A DNA stretch of 64,000 nt from Bacteroidota bacterium. GTDB lineage: Bacteria > Bacteroidota > Ignavibacteria > Palsa-1295. The stretch spans positions 576,510-640,509 of the forward strand of contig JAJPIO010000009.1 of NCBI GenBank assembly GCA_021324735.1, given 5' to 3'. The position numbers and the translations under genes are program-made. Positions within the stretch are counted from its first letter, which is position 1. Each line of letters opens with the position of its first letter. The notes beneath the pieces are model-generated. The model worked only from the letters and a program-made list of their open reading frames with translations, made no database searches and had not been told where the DNA came from. Of this stretch, positions 11,982 to 60,936 are shown piece after piece.

Positions 11982-12098
11982 AATATTCGTCCTTTCTTGT
12001 TTGCAAAGGCAAGGTCTTATTGCAAAGGCAATGGAATAACCCGGCAGTGATGCCGAAGTTACAGACGAATTTGAGAAAATTTTACGGTGCGAGGATCG

Positions 12099-34102: not shown

Positions 34103-36064
34103 ATGCCTCAGGCACTTCACCCTGATTTCGAGACGACTCTTCCGGATACCGATTACTTCTTCTTCGGCTCCGGACGTATTCAAGCGGCAGTCCAATGGTG
34201 TAGGGGAGAGAAAGGTACTGCTTTAGGGCTACTTATTTCTGATCCGGTACACTTTGCGCGTAAATGGTCGACGCATCTATTTCACCCGGAGTATGGACTT
34301 GAACGAACCATGCTGACTGTGATCTTGGACGGTGAACGCTACCAACCAGATGAGTTGACGCGCGTCGTGTGGTATCCGGATGAGATGCCAGGCGTAACCG
34401 CTATGTGGCAAGCTGGCGATGCTTATGTCATCGAACGGTTTGTTACTGCTTATGATGAGCCGATCGTTATGAGAGAGATCACGTTAAGCGGACGCTCGTT
34501 CGAGAGTGCTGAATTGGAAGTTGCACTCTACGCTAATCCGGCTCTGTTCAATGAATTTCTTGGTAATGCTTATGCCCTGATGGCGCGTGGATATGACTCT
34601 ATCCTTGTAAGCTCACACGCATCTGGTCATTTTCACGAGCGGACATTGCGTGTGCCATTTTACAACAACGATGGCATGTATCAGGCAACCTTATATTATT
34701 CGCTTGGCCCGGACATGCCGAGCATCGGTGTCCATGATCTGATCGAAAAAGAAAAAAAATACTGGACCGAGACCTGTGCCCGATGGACGTCGCCAAATCC
34801 ATCGCCGCTTATTCAGGAAATTGAACGCATATTCACTGCCTCGGCAAATGGGTTGCGAGCAGCCGTAGCGGATACTGGAAGGTTCGATGCGAGTATTTGG
34901 CAATATGGTTACGAATGGTCCGGTGATGCCTCGATGGTTGCGGAGGCGCTGGTCTATTCTGGACAATTCGAAGTTGCACGTAATGTACTTGAAAATATTC
35001 TCACTCGCCTTACCATCGACGAAGGAATGGCGATGGAGTCAAGCCGATTTCGTGGTGGTCCGGATGCCGAGCTAAACAATAATGGTGAGATATTGAAAGC
35101 GTGTCGCACCTATCAGCAATGGAGTGGCGACCCGTTCTTTATTCAGGATTTTTATCCGCGTATTTCCGCGATAGCCAATTATTTGCTTCGTCCGGAGTAT
35201 CTGGATGGCGAGACGGGTATGCTCAAAGCATGTCGCGATATTTGGGAGCGGAACGAGGCAACGGGCATTTTGCCGGGCTATGATGTTTCGCATCAAACGT
35301 TCGGCATACTTGGCTTACGCGCTGCAAGCAAAATTGCCAATGATATCGGTGCTGCGGAAGATGCGCGCCGCTGGGGTATAGCTTCGGAGCGCATGCGCGA
35401 AAGCTTTCTCGCTCATCCAACGCACTCCATGATCGCGAATGGCCGCATCATTAAGCGCCGGTTGCTGGATGGTTCAATTCAAACATCGCTTCAGAAAAAG
35501 GAATCGGAAATTGATTTCCTTCGAGCGTTCGTGCCACAGGGAATGCCGCTGGCCAAAGAAGGAGCGCATGCCTGGGAGCCGGATATCTCCGAGGTGTTTC
35601 CAATCTGTTATGGCATTATCGATCCGAGGTCAGAGACGGCGCTTCACACGATCGAAGCGATGGATGAATTATGGTCGCAAGCATGGGATGGCGGCGGCTA
35701 TGGACGTTACAATGTGCTTTCAGAGCCGGATTCACCCGGTCCGTGGCCGTTTGCGACAGCCTATGTTGCGGCTGCTTGTATGGAAACTGGTGATGTTAAG
35801 CGCGCGCAACGAGCGGTCGAGTGGCTTATTGAGAAGGCGGGAGCAGGCGGAAGTTGGTTCGAATTTTATGGCGATCGTCCCACCCCGCCATTACCTCCGA
35901 CCGGCATTATTGTTTGGGGATGGGCGCAATGGATAACGCTCGTAGTAAAGCACATGCTTGGTGCGCATGTGAAAGATAACGAGCTTATTATTCGTCCGAG
36001 GCTCGGCGGCTTTTCTGGTGAGCTTCGATTTAGAGAGTCGAGTGTTAGGATACCAGTGCCGTAG
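34103..36064 (+). CDS. (alpha/alpha)6-barrel glycoside hydrolase
   Basis: 653 residues from ATG 34103; the open frame before it overlaps the symporter gene. An N-terminal beta-sandwich (about 1-235) precedes an (alpha/alpha)6 toroid with motifs WQYGYEWSGDASMVAEALVYSG (catalytic-side loop with Trp/Asp), DAELNNNGEILKACRTYQQWSG and WERNEATGILPGYD. No signal peptide. It resembles amylo-alpha-1,6-glucosidase/GH15/GH63-like enzymes acting on alpha-glucans, but the exact family is not certain. The stop codon lies inside a REP hairpin (36056-36068), so the last two residues come from the repeat. It is probably co-transcribed with the symporter. Confidence 0.75.
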   Translation: MPQALHPDFETTLPDTDYFFFGSGRIQAAVQWCRGEKGTALGLLISDPVHFARKWSTHLFHPEYGLERTMLTVILDGERYQPDELTRVVWYPDEMPGVTAMWQAGDAYVIERFVTAYDEPIVMREITLSGRSFESAELEVALYANPALFNEFLGNAYALMARGYDSILVSSHASGHFHERTLRVPFYNNDGMYQATLYYSLGPDMPSIGVHDLIEKEKKYWTETCARWTSPNPSPLIQEIERIFTASANGLRAAVADTGRFDASIWQYGYEWSGDASMVAEALVYSGQFEVARNVLENILTRLTIDEGMAMESSRFRGGPDAELNNNGEILKACRTYQQWSGDPFFIQDFYPRISAIANYLLRPEYLDGETGMLKACRDIWERNEATGILPGYDVSHQTFGILGLRAASKIANDIGAAEDARRWGIASERMRESFLAHPTHSMIANGRIIKRRLLDGSIQTSLQKKESEIDFLRAFVPQGMPLAKEGAHAWEPDISEVFPICYGIIDPRSETALHTIEAMDELWSQAWDGGGYGRYNVLSEPDSPGPWPFATAYVAAACMETGDVKRAQRAVEWLIEKAGAGGSWFEFYGDRPTPPLPPTGIIVWGWAQWITLVVKHMLGAHVKDNELIIRPRLGGFSGELRFRESSVRIPVP

Positions 36065-36139
36065 GCACGCAATGTTAGTAGCCGGTGACGCAAGTCACCG
36101 GAAAAGGATTATAGAAAACGAGTTAAGTGCCGAAGGCAC
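36056..36139. repeat. REP/BIME-like hairpin cluster, left of the transposase
   Basis: Three hairpins: GTGCC-GTA-GGCAC (36056-36068), CCGGTGAC-GCAA-GTCACCGG (36082-36101) and GTGCC-GAA-GGCAC (36127-36139). The module is the inverted counterpart of the cluster to the right of the transposase gene. Confidence 0.92.
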
Positions 36140-36158
36140 GAAATGTAAGGAGGTAATA

Positions 36159-36626
36159 ATGGGATCGACCTTCTCGTCTATTTTGCTACATTATGTCTTC
36201 GCTCCTAAAGGTCGCGAGAACAAATTGCAGGAGTCGTTTCGAGAAGAGCTTCATAAGTACATTACCGGCATAGCTCAAGCCGGAGCATATCCCTGCCGCA
36301 TGCTCGCAACTGGCAGCGCCACAGATCATATGCATTTGCTAGTAAGCACGCACCCAATGGTTGCTCCTGCCAAATTGATCCAACTTATCAAGACCAATAG
36401 CTCTCGCTGGATAAATGAGCGAGGCTTTCTACGCAATCGCTTTGAATGGCAAGAAGGGTATGGAGTGTTTTCTCATTCGATTTCACAGAAGTCGGTGGCT
36501 GCTCGATACGTATTAACTCAACGTGAGCATCATCGTAAGAAGACATTCAAGGAAGAATACTTTGAACTCCTCCGAAAACATGGTATAGAGTTCAAAGAAG
36601 AATATGTACTCGACTTTTACGATTGA
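36159..36626 (+). CDS. REP-associated tyrosine (Y1) transposase, IS200-like
   Basis: 155 residues from ATG 36159, with strong Shine-Dalgarno AAGGAGG 5 nt before it. HUH motif in TDHMHLLVS (His-x-His) and a downstream Tyr in WQEGYGVFSHSISQ are the catalytic elements of Y1/TnpA_REP transposases. No tnpB is adjacent. REP-type hairpins flank it on both sides in inverted orientation, the layout of a domesticated RAYT with its own REPs. It would nick single-stranded DNA at a REP hairpin. It looks intact. Confidence 0.88.
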   Translation: MGSTFSSILLHYVFAPKGRENKLQESFREELHKYITGIAQAGAYPCRMLATGSATDHMHLLVSTHPMVAPAKLIQLIKTNSSRWINERGFLRNRFEWQEGYGVFSHSISQKSVAARYVLTQREHHRKKTFKEEYFELLRKHGIEFKEEYVLDFYD

Positions 36627-36631
36627 CTAAC

Positions 36632-37465
36632 ATGCCGTGCCTTCGGCACTTCTCAGTGGTTTGGTGGCTGTGGTCCGGTGACTTACGTCACCGGCTACCG
36701 ACATATTGTGCCTTCGGCACTTGGGTATTGTGCCTAAATCTTATGTGTCCGCCAATCGCCTCTGCCCAGCATCTTCGCATCTTCGCCTGTGCGATCGGCA
36801 ACGACAGTACCGGTGCATTCATGGGGGGAAGCACCAATGGCTCGGGACTCTACCAATCGGATGACACGGGCAAGACCTGGAAGCACCTCGGCTGGAATAA
36901 TATCAAATGCTATTCGATGGATATGGTGCAATCCTCGAACGGACGAATCCTTTATGAAGCAACAGGTCTCGGAGTTCTTCGCTCAACGGATTATGGCGAG
37001 CATTGGAAGCAAATAACGGATTGGCGAATATCAGAAGTAATGGATATTGCCATCGATCAAAAAAATCCCAACGAGATATATCTTGCCACGGCGCATGGAC
37101 CGTGGAGAACGAGAGATGGGGGCAAAACGTGGAGCGAGTTTCATAACTCCAGACAGTACAGTAATGGAGTTCAATTTATTGACTCTGTACCAAACTTCTT
37201 TGAAAGGCAACTGCATTTTGTTGGTGGAAGACCGGAGCAACTGGATTCGGCTGATATATCGGGGAAGGCTAACATTCTATTGCATCCCCCCGATGAGAAC
37301 CCTGCAGTTGTCTTAATTTCCACTTTAGGAAACGGTATTTATTTCGGGGAGCAAGTTCGCTATCCTTGCGGCGAGTTCGCCAAAAGCAGTTATTGCGATC
37401 CGTGCCAGAATGTACTGCCGATGCGCCAAATATGGAGACTTAGAATGTTTGGGGTAACGCCGTGA
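36632..37465 (+). CDS. Secreted BNR/Ycf48-like repeat protein with REP-derived N-terminus
   Basis: 277 residues from ATG 36632 (a TTG at 36623 is also in frame). Residues about 1-35 are encoded by the REP cluster (the segment GDLRHRLPTYCAFGT is read from CCGGTGAC... and GTGCC-TTC-GGCAC), then a hydrophobic signal stretch (WVLCLNLMCPPIASAQ). The mature part has BNR-like repeats (GLYQSDDTGKTWKHLG, GVLRSTDYGEHWKQIT, GPWRTRDGGKTWSEF), which build beta-propeller blades. It ends early compared with usual propellers and has no sorting domain, so it may be a truncated gene. The stop overlaps the next GTG (GTGA). Confidence 0.65.
   Translation: MPCLRHFSVVWWLWSGDLRHRLPTYCAFGTWVLCLNLMCPPIASAQHLRIFACAIGNDSTGAFMGGSTNGSGLYQSDDTGKTWKHLGWNNIKCYSMDMVQSSNGRILYEATGLGVLRSTDYGEHWKQITDWRISEVMDIAIDQKNPNEIYLATAHGPWRTRDGGKTWSEFHNSRQYSNGVQFIDSVPNFFERQLHFVGGRPEQLDSADISGKANILLHPPDENPAVVLISTLGNGIYFGEQVRYPCGEFAKSSYCDPCQNVLPMRQIWRLRMFGVTP
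36637..36720. repeat. REP/BIME-like hairpin cluster, right of the transposase
   Basis: Hairpins GTGCC-TTC-GGCAC (36637-36649), CCGGTGAC-TTAC-GTCACCGG (36675-36694) and GTGCC-TTC-GGCAC (36708-36720). The linker CTACCGACATATT matches the reverse complement of the left cluster linker with few changes. It lies inside the start of the following ORF. Confidence 0.92.
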
Positions 37466-43046: not shown

Positions 43047-43076
43047 TTGGTCAGTATATTAAATCACATATCTTTG
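43047..43076 (+). promoter_or_regulatory. Bacteroidota-type promoter for the B12 riboswitch transcript
   Basis: TTG at 43047-43049 and TATCTTTG at 43069-43076, spaced by 19 bases, fit the TTTG-N17..23-TAnnTTTG consensus. The start of transcription would fall at about 43083, directly at the 5' end of the cobalamin riboswitch. Confidence 0.75.
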
Positions 43077-43084
43077 CAACCAAG

Positions 43085-43314
43085 TACGTGGTGCCTCATA
43101 GCATGAGCGATCGTGCGCGAGGTGAAAAGGGAATCTCGTGAGAGAACCCTGCCGTGATCTCACGGTTGGTTTTTCAATTCGAGAGCTGCCCCGCAACTGT
43201 AACTCCGGACGAGCGATCGTCCACCTAAGACCACTGGGTAAAATCCGGGAAGGCAAGAAGCATGAGGGATCATTTACGTGATCGTTCAATGCAGGAGAAG
43301 CCAGGAGACCTGCC
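43085..43314 (+). ncRNA. Cobalamin (AdoCbl) riboswitch
   Basis: Conserved blocks in order: GTGGTGCC near the 5' end, GGTGAAAAGGGAATC, GAGCTGCCCCGCAACTGTAA, CCACTGGG...GGGAAGG, and the B12 box GCCAGGAGACCTGCC (43300-43314). These are the standard elements of class I cobalamin riboswitches. It precedes a BtuB-like receptor, so cobalamin should repress uptake. The expression platform is the terminator at 43438-43478. Confidence 0.95.
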
Positions 43315-43437
43315 ACAGAAAAGCAGCACAGCGCTGCTCTAATCAACATCATTTGCCTTCGAGGGAGAGGCAGGAGTTACAAAAGATCGACGTTGCACCG
43401 TGGCGGTTTCCGCTCTCGTGCTTTGATTTTTGTCAGT

Positions 43438-58376: not shown

Positions 58377-59705
58377 ATGCGCTCATTTACGCTAATTGCC
58401 ACATTGGTAGGAATGCTCTTATCTACAAATCTTATCGCTCAATGGCATAAGATCGCGGATTTTCCATGCTCGGGATTTGGGACGACCATTGACGAGCCTA
58501 TCTTGTCTGTTTATTTTCTGGACCTTTCGGGTCCTCCACGTATAGGATTCACTGGTACCGAATCAGAACTCTATAAAACTACCGACGGAGGAATATCCTG
58601 GACAAAAGTCTGGGGAAATGGGTGCTACGACTTATTTGGAATCACAGATATTTGCTTCAAGGATAGCCTTAACGGATGGTTCTCAATCTTTGACGGCTCA
58701 GGCACGATAGGCGATACGGCGTGCTATCGAACGACCGATGGTGGTAACACCTGGAAGCCGATCGAAATACCCAATTCCACATTTGGAAGTCTTAATGTAT
58801 ATTATCATTCCGTAGAGGGTCGCCTTTTCCTGAGTATGGCTGATTATAGTGGAATGCGGATGTCAACTGATTTAGGCAGTCACTGGAGCGAAGTTACGAA
58901 AATAGAGACGGGAGGACTCTCGTTCTTCAACGATTCAATGGCAGTAGCTGCATCATACCCCGAGGATGGAGACAGCACTCATTTTATCGTTCGAACAACG
59001 GATGGAGGCTTAACATGGGACTCAGTCACGACACCGTCTTCCTGTCATCAGCCACTGGCTATTCCAGGCACGTCCATTTGTTTTGCATCTACATGGGGGC
59101 CAATTCAAATCTATCGGAGCGATGATTATGGAGTAAGTTGGAAATTGATAAAGGACTTTGGTCCTCTAGCTGACACACAATATCATCAGATCGCTCCCTA
59201 CGGAGATGGAGTGATCGCCGGTCCTCTTTCACGACTTTCAATACTGACCGATTGGGGTACCTATGTTTCGACGGATGAAGGGGCTCGCTGGACCAAGGAA
59301 GTGGGAAGTCCTAAATACAGTCTTTCTGGTGCTGGTGGTCAAACGTTTTACAGTGCCAAAGGCATCACGGTGGCCGGTGCTGCGGGTGGGGGACTATATC
59401 AAGGTTTCGGTTTATGGGAAGAATCGTGGCCGCAAGCAAGCGTCGTCAACGAGTATTTCACATCGAGCGATGAGTTGATCGTATGTCCGAATCCGGCATC
59501 GCAGCGGATAGAGATTACCAGTGCAACTGGTGACATCCATCTCTACGATTATCTGGGCCGCGAACGAAGTGTTGGGCTGAAGCAAGCATCGCCCACGATG
59601 CTTACGACCTACATGTCCGTTACACTCGATGTCTCACATTTTGAACCGGGCTTGTATATTCTTCGGTCGGGTTCGCGATCGGCGAAGGTAGAGATAGTGC
59701 GTTAA
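58377..59705 (+). CDS. Secreted BNR/Ycf48-like protein with type IX sorting domain
   Basis: 442 residues: signal peptide (FTLIATLVGMLLSTNLIAQ), beta-propeller repeats (TTDGGISWTKVW, TTDGGNTWKPIE, TTDGGLTWDSVT, SDDYGVSWKLIK) and a sorting domain (LIVCPNPASQRIEITSATGDIHLYDYLG...FEPGLYILRSGSRSAKVEIVR). It is probably a surface or secreted protein of unknown ligand. Its repeats resemble those in the protein at 36632-37465, although that copy lacks the sorting domain. Confidence 0.85.
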   Translation: MRSFTLIATLVGMLLSTNLIAQWHKIADFPCSGFGTTIDEPILSVYFLDLSGPPRIGFTGTESELYKTTDGGISWTKVWGNGCYDLFGITDICFKDSLNGWFSIFDGSGTIGDTACYRTTDGGNTWKPIEIPNSTFGSLNVYYHSVEGRLFLSMADYSGMRMSTDLGSHWSEVTKIETGGLSFFNDSMAVAASYPEDGDSTHFIVRTTDGGLTWDSVTTPSSCHQPLAIPGTSICFASTWGPIQIYRSDDYGVSWKLIKDFGPLADTQYHQIAPYGDGVIAGPLSRLSILTDWGTYVSTDEGARWTKEVGSPKYSLSGAGGQTFYSAKGITVAGAAGGGLYQGFGLWEESWPQASVVNEYFTSSDELIVCPNPASQRIEITSATGDIHLYDYLGRERSVGLKQASPTMLTTYMSVTLDVSHFEPGLYILRSGSRSAKVEIVR

Positions 59706-60528
59706 GGTCATTTTCGTATGACCTGAGAATTTTGTATTATATTTGCAAAAGCCGATTGGATCATCCCTCGGCGAAACGCAAAATACTTAGAACCTACCGC
59801 TTAATTGCTACAAATTGAACGAATGGCGTAAAACGGCCATTCGGGTGCAGAAAGAAACAGGGTCACAGATTAGTGACCTAATTCGATGTGTAACCTTTTC
59901 GCGTTTCGTCGGTCTTTATAACAGCAGCAGCGATGAGTGAGAAATCACGAACCTGCTTATGAATTAGTAGCAAAACAGATAATTTCAGAAGGAAACTTGA
60001 TACGGTACTCTGTCTGATGCCGATTTGCGCTTGGTCTGAAAGAACTAAGGGCTAAGCCGGAATCGGATACAAAAGCATGAACGCTCATACTGTGAGCACT
60101 CCTATCATGAGTGATCAAACGTTGAGAGGCCATGCGACGAGGCTAAATTGATTTGCCGCTTTGAGCGGATGGATGAAAGCTCATTCGTGAGTGGGCATCC
60201 ACCGGACCTACACTCCGGAATTTCGACTCGATACATATGCAGCAGTGCCATGGATCGACGAGAATATGCGTAAGCGATACGTTCTCTGTTCGCCCAGAAT
60301 CGGACGTGAATGGAGGAAGTGGCAAAGTGGATCGCCAGCGATTTAATAATGTCGTGAGCGATTCACAAGGAGATCGGTAGCGATCTCAGCTCAAAGCGGC
60401 AAGTCACCATTTTACGATGAGGTCAATCGCTTCATCGGCCTTAAAGTCGGACGGAGTAAGTGAGCAATCATTGGAGGGCGCACATCAGAATGATGACGCC
60501 ATCCGCGTTCAACTAACTTCTGAAAGAT
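59706..60528 (+). ncRNA. 823-bp hairpin-rich noncoding region, candidate structured RNA or leader
   Basis: No coding frame of note. A TATATTTG box lies at 59738-59745. Hairpins include CGAATGGC/GCCATTCG (59820-59843), GGTCAC/GTGACC (59861-59878), GTGA-GAAA-TCAC with a GNRA loop (59937-59948), CTTGGT/ACTAAG (60030-60049) inside CCGATT/AATCGG, and GGATG/CATCC enclosing CTCA-TTCG-TGAG (60171-60200). The strongest feature is a long-range helix: TGATTTGCCGCTTTGAGC (60149-60166) pairs with 60389-60406 over 18 positions with one G-T pair, closing a 222-nt domain. A last hairpin (60473-60504) precedes the next ATG. The helix arms could also be read as terminal inverted repeats of a 258-bp mobile element. 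Confidence 0.4.
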
Positions 60529-60936
60529 ATGTCAGCGACAACTGTTCGATCCTCAGCTTCGTCCGTTCCATCCCACAACCATGCATACGTCGGGGCGCAG
60601 TCCTCGCGTAATCTCGCACCCTTCGTCGATCTTCAGCAGAGTCCGTACGCCCACGTTCCTGCTGCACCGGCGAACGATGAGCACGGCAATCCGGTAGCAG
60701 ACCTTATCCCGGACGAGGTCTATCAGCTTCTCCGTTCGAACGATCTCATTAGTGAAAAAGGGGTGCGCGATTATATGATCCGCCGTACGTTCAAAGCAAT
60801 GCGCGAGAACAAAGCGATCAAGAGTTCGGAAGCACTCGAACGCCTGCAGGCGATCTATCCGTACTTGCAGATCGATACGATCCGAAAGATCATCTATCGT
60901 ATTGGTCCGGGCAGCAACCGGAAGATGATGTTTTAA
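60529..60936 (+). CDS. Small HTH-like protein, function unknown
   Basis: 135 residues. The first 45 residues are Ser/Ala/Pro/His-rich and probably disordered. The rest is helical and basic (LIPDEVYQLLRSNDLISEKGVRDYMIRRTFKAMRENKAIKSSEALERLQAIYPYLQIDTIRKIIYRI), with LERLQAIYPYLQIDTIRKIIYRI looking like a helix-turn-helix. DNA or RNA binding is plausible but not shown. Shine-Dalgarno is weak (GAAAG). It directly follows the structured noncoding region. Confidence 0.65.
   Translation: MSATTVRSSASSVPSHNHAYVGAQSSRNLAPFVDLQQSPYAHVPAAPANDEHGNPVADLIPDEVYQLLRSNDLISEKGVRDYMIRRTFKAMRENKAIKSSEALERLQAIYPYLQIDTIRKIIYRIGPGSNRKMMF

Follow-up and report, generated by a model that had tools for sequence, protein, structure and literature searches.

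A putative long mRNA leader with predicted pairing over the start codon of a small helical protein gene in Ignavibacteria

Introduction

What does an apparently non-coding but extensively folding interval do for the small gene that it directly precedes? The question is raised by the 823-bp gap at positions 59706-60528 of the window, i.e., the whole stretch of 64,000 nucleotides analyzed here from an assembly of the class Ignavibacteria (GCA_021324735.1). An earlier sequence-only reading had proposed a candidate large structured RNA closed by an 18-position long-range helix and had left three options for it: a new RNA, a regulatory leader of the gene at 60529, or a MITE with 18-bp terminal repeats. 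A general class of cis-regulatory mRNA leaders consists of long, structured 5' leaders in which the translation start is sequestered. The comparison of homologous regions described below favors the leader option, to which a probability of roughly 85% is assigned.

Results

Fold of the gap and the inner helix

No convincing gene was found in the 823-bp gap, in agreement with the initial description. The forward strand at 59740-60528 folds with an energy of -295.9 kcal/mol (z = -10.3 vs shuffles), and the reverse strand of the region folds more weakly (z = -3.6). The long-range helix between 60149-60166 and 60389-60406 is present as originally described: 14 contiguous Watson-Crick pairs are followed by one G-U and three further pairs (17 Watson-Crick pairs and one G-U over 18 positions), with 222 nt inside. 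When mismatches are allowed, it reaches 60169/60386, so that its arms occupy 60149-60169 and 60386-60406 of the forward strand. A perfect inverted repeat of 14 appeared in none of 300 mononucleotide shuffles of the region (maximum 13), but 3 of the 78 other 823-nt tiles of the window also carry one of at least 14; the length of the helix alone is therefore only suggestive.

Covariation within the window's genus supports the helix. On the aligned arms, 93.1% of cells were paired and double changes occurred at four pairs, a count matched by 2 of 500 shuffles, and sliding the partners by one to three columns reduced pairing to 28-43%. The element TCACCATTTT (60404-60413, forward strand), just 3' of the helix, is conserved with small changes in G006, G005, G004, G002, and G001. 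The helix is absent from the short leaders of other genera and is thus an inner stem confined to one genus; the helix that recurs throughout the family is an outer one, closing over the AUG. These structure calls rest on per-leader folds and hand-trimmed helix arms, because RNAalifold, applied to the 5' part as aligned by MAFFT, returned an unreliable mixed fold owing to misaligned inserts.

A search of 59400-60800 against 4227 Rfam families returned no match at the gathering threshold or at E<=5, beyond SNORD82 with 17.8 bits vs 43. Elsewhere in the window, Rfam places a Cobalamin riboswitch at 43072-43331 (+; 86.5 bits) and two inverted copies of Acido-Lenti-1, at 36055-36101 (-) and 36675-36721 (+). 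The latter lie on either side of a gene for an IS200-like Y1 transposase (36018-36626; PF01797, E 3e-21), and this "sRNA" looks here like the hairpin ends of an IS200-like transposable element.

Homologous leaders in the family

Same-genus relatives were found by DNA similarity, and the wider set was collected by a protein search with the downstream product. In each of the 13 family genomes examined, which represent five genera, the same gene is immediately preceded by a homologous leader; 12 of these leaders are complete. This constant position before a single gene family is what a cis-regulatory leader should show. In the window's genus, five other genomes have the full region immediately before this gene, and in a sixth, G002, it is cut by a contig end; in the other four genera (six genomes), the leader is shorter and recognizably related in every case. 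The 12 complete leaders share one anatomy: a dyad, mostly AGGKCA-N8-TGMCCT, is followed by TGTWAC, 16 nt, and GGT, then by a local hairpin in most of them, an identical UUGAUAC box, an interior whose length varies widely, and the start codon. Small palindromes ATGAGCRATCAT are found repeatedly within or beside the leaders of G001 (L019), G003 (L018), G004 (L017), and G006 (L015) and look like inserted hairpins that lengthen the interior. An aptamer core conserved across members, by which a riboswitch would be recognized, was not found, since across genera only the 7-nt UUGAUAC box is kept and the interior is replaced.

Promoters and upstream DNA elements

Two promoters can be read on the forward strand. 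The promoter box noted earlier at the 5' side, TATATTTG at 59738-59745 (P1), is confirmed by direct reading and corresponds to TAnnTTTG, the primary-sigma -7 box of Bacteroidota (PMC9723704). The other five complete genus leaders carry it in the same position (as TATTTTTG in G004), and so does leader L040 of G009. The second, P2, is an ECF-sigma-type promoter at 59889-59914, composed of TGTAAC (-35), N16, and GGTC (-10), which the sequence-only reading had missed; the functional unit also extends further than that reading had it, as far as the start codon (60529-60531). Only transcripts from P1 would contain helix H1, whose 5' arm TTGCTACAAATT (59805-59816) pairs with 59962-59973. H1 recurs as TTTGCTACTG/CAGTAGCAAA and similar sequences in G006, G005, G003, and G001 and is absent in G004; as its core sequence is invariant, it offers little covariation. 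Between the H1 arm and P2 lies the dyad GGGTCACAGATTAGTGACCT (59860-59879), upstream of the ECF -35, which may be a DNA operator or, in P1 transcripts, a hairpin; it is recognizable in 12/12 leaders at a similar distance from the -35. A second dyad, AGGTCA-N8-TGACCT, at 59705-59724, right after the stop codon of the upstream gene and before the TATATTTG box, resembles it.

The spacing from TGTWAC to GGT is identical in all 12 leaders. Genomes of the genus each contain 4-13 sites of the extended motif TGTWACCTTTT-N5-TTCGTBGGTC, against none for the reversed control, and copies of the motif elsewhere precede genes for Sigma70_r2 proteins (L068, L069, L070) and for many large secreted or surface-type proteins. 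Judged from these motif positions, the distribution is that of a putative ECF regulon with its own sigma gene among its members. The two marks of an ECF-sigma promoter, a TGTAAC-like -35 and a GGT/CGT-like -10 at fixed spacing and the sharing of this motif with an ECF sigma gene, are thus both found, in 12/12 leaders and before three Sigma70_r2 proteins, respectively, and a stress-type (ECF) sigma factor apparently activates the leader. In other families, none of 80 regions preceding the homologous gene carried the P2-type motif. Within the regulon at large (L058-L087), where the motif is common to ECF sigma and large secreted protein genes, spacing and -10 letters vary between the genera of the family. 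An ECF-like TGTAAC-N16-GGTT also lies at 12038-12063 (-) of the window, upstream of a 354-aa lipoprotein-like ORF.

Pairing over the translation start

The outermost pairing joins an anti-start strand ACAGATAATTTCAGAAG (59975-59991) to a start-side strand CTTCTGAAAGATATGTC (60517-60533), which includes the AUG at 60529-60531; a second closing strand, TACTCTGTCTGAT (60006-60018), pairs with 60446-60458, all on the forward strand. The pairing ACTCTGTC:GAC(A/G)GAGT is kept, at least partly, in five of six genus members, and most of it is lost in G003. When the 12 complete leaders were folded separately, the strand beside the UUGAUAC box paired with the translation start in every one, usually including the AUG, as expected of a cis-regulatory leader. 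The span of this pairing is 532 nt in the window and 92-408 nt in relatives. Expected closing pairs number 19-34 in the 12 leaders vs means of 1.5-5.4 in dinucleotide shuffles (each p 0.01-0.04, values that should not simply be combined by multiplication because the leaders are mutually related). The probability that the AUG is paired is 0.58-1.00, its main partner lying 15-31 nt upstream of the box in 12/12 leaders, minor alternatives aside. Mean long-range pairing of the AUG is 0.86 in the leaders vs 0.40 in 26 homologous genes of other families (p = 3e-5), several of which likewise have a paired AUG.

The strands involved have different sequences: CTCTTTGAT:ATCAAAGAG, TTCTTTGAT:ATCAAAGAA, TGATACGAT:ATCGTATCA, TTGATACG:CGTATCAA, ATTGATACT:AGTATCAAT, and CTTTCAGAAG:CTTCTGAAAG. 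Since the complementary sequences differ between genera, it is the pairing, rather than the sequence, that is conserved. The register of the closing helix shifts between genera, so this support consists of retained complementarity and not of column-by-column covariation. Uncompensated within-genus substitutions occur in CTTTCAGAAG:CTTCTGAAAG (G005, G006), the overall fold of L033 is no better than that of its shuffles (z -1.0), and in L035 the reverse strand folds better than the forward one. Neither a conserved alternative (ON) structure or hairpin nor a conserved or shared upstream ORF was found among the leaders; a local UUCAGA:UCUGAA hairpin is possible in the window's genus only.

The UUGAUAC box

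The box (59997-60003, forward strand), identical in 12/12 complete family leaders, falls within the closing helix or outside it depending on the genus, and its invariance in both situations means that pairing alone does not explain it. The exact box also occurs in 12 of 80 homologous upstream regions from other families, always 51-59 nt before the ATG (L036, L047, L097, L105, L157-L159, L162, L167, L173, L174, and L178), against a shuffled expectation of 0.4, and on the reverse strand it was found in that interval in none of the 80. A GGAG element often precedes the box by about 18-22 nt, and the variable spacing argues against a rigid promoter. Judging by this distribution, the box is probably a recognition site that existed before the long leader.

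The downstream protein

The gene at 60529-60936 (+) encodes a 135-aa protein whose helical core, about 80 residues long (N54-Y123), is conserved; a protein search detected this core in 139 of 294 genomes of the class. The AlphaFold model has four helices, with a core pLDDT of 84-97. The Pfam/NCBIfam search returned no family above cut-off, Foldseek gave no PDB relative, and structure searches found nothing convincing among viral models. DUF433 (PF04255) weakly matched 3 of 29 protein members, all below threshold (best E 0.02), and YPYLQFDTIRKIVY resembles the C-terminal motif of this family. The label "HTH-like," given to the product earlier, is plausible from the last two helices of the model and is unproven.

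Discussion

Among the three options offered at the outset, the leader of the 60529 gene is the best supported, since position, promoter, box, and start-codon helix are all conserved family-wide. The comparison of sequences shows a conserved anatomy, a covarying inner helix, and a start pairing kept in five genera despite sequence change. A scheme that would combine these features runs as follows. Transcription would begin near 59920 from the ECF-sigma promoter and, in the window's genus, also from the upstream primary-sigma promoter. The leader would then fold into one large closed domain, of which the covarying 18-position helix would be an inner, genus-only stem, and the segment just 5' of the UUGAUAC box would pair with the translation start. 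Such a fold would block ribosomes, and expression would depend on the ECF factor as well as on some event opening the helix; the box would most likely be recognized by another factor, perhaps the encoded protein itself, which would shift the balance. The start pairing probably controls translation of the small helical protein. That this protein autoregulates its synthesis through the leader is suggested much more tentatively. Equally speculative, and on balance doubtful, is the wider idea that the box is an RNA target of the downstream protein, that the class-wide family would consist of autoregulatory RNA-binding proteins, and that in this bacterial family a short site has grown into an ECF-controlled leader of several hundred nucleotides covering the start codon.

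Other explanations start from the same observations. A separate trans-acting large non-coding RNA, like OLE, ROOL, or GOLLD and encoded upstream by chance, would account for the large strand-specific fold with its own promoters and for the conservation of the inner helix and the flanking CACCAUUUU in the genus. Such a free-standing RNA is nevertheless unlikely: the region always adjoins the same gene and pairs with its AUG, its interior is replaced between genera whereas the start-pairing ends persist, Rfam offers no match, and no separate terminator was identified. It is improbable, too, that the elements act mainly as DNA, the ECF promoter being joined by an operator at the dyad and by inverted repeats that a looping repressor would bind, and that the RNA fold is a by-product. 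The fixed promoter spacing, the dyad conserved upstream of the -35, and the nearly invariant H1 arms TTGCTACTG/CAGTAGCAA would suit such a role, but the strand asymmetry of the fold in the genus and the G-U-tolerant covariation of the inner helix speak for RNA, and pairing is kept amid sequence change, whereas an operator would keep its sequence.

A transcription attenuator, in which helices followed by U-runs would end the mRNA early unless prevented, finds some basis in the U-runs that follow helices in most members, namely CACCAUUUUU after the inner helix in the genus and UUUUUU after the box helix in L034, L035, and L041. The stems, however, span 100-220 nt or more and the genus U-run lies several nucleotides away, which would make poor intrinsic terminators, and G003, L032, and L040 have no such arrangement; we consider this explanation very unlikely. 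As for a MITE or another dispersed mobile element, the 258-bp unit is indeed bounded by an 18-position inverted repeat, but a search for dispersed copies gave one match in the whole 3.55-Mb genome, the unit occupies a syntenic position before the same gene in relatives, and its arms covary; single copy and synteny refute this option.

As a cis-acting leader covering the start, the RNA is of an already known kind; its family is undescribed. It shares with start-sequestering leaders the pairing of a distal upstream segment over the start codon region and the attachment to one gene, and departs from them in a reach of up to 532 nt, an embedded ECF promoter, and the lack of a known ligand or Rfam family. 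The length of the reach and the growth around a class-wide box are its unusual aspects. OLE, ROOL, and GOLLD (PMC12286853) are likewise several hundred nucleotides long with an elaborate strand-specific fold; unlike the present RNA, they are free-standing, without reported pairing to a gene start, and no sequence or covariance-model match to them was found here. With regard to the promoter, ECF factors are tied to type IX secretion genes in P. gingivalis, through PorXY-SigP (PMC4800418), and in F. psychrophilum, with SM6 promoters (PMC9723704). The present system resembles these regulons in that an ECF-type motif precedes ECF sigma and secreted or surface protein genes, and it differs in the letters of the motif (TGTWAC-N16-GGT).

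The leader described here adds a covariation-supported leader RNA family, undescribed before, to a poorly studied bacterial lineage and provides an example in which the strand that apparently covers the start codon is over 500 nt distant. Moreover, the 7-nt site conserved ahead of a widespread family of small proteins without known function makes the possible autoregulation directly testable.
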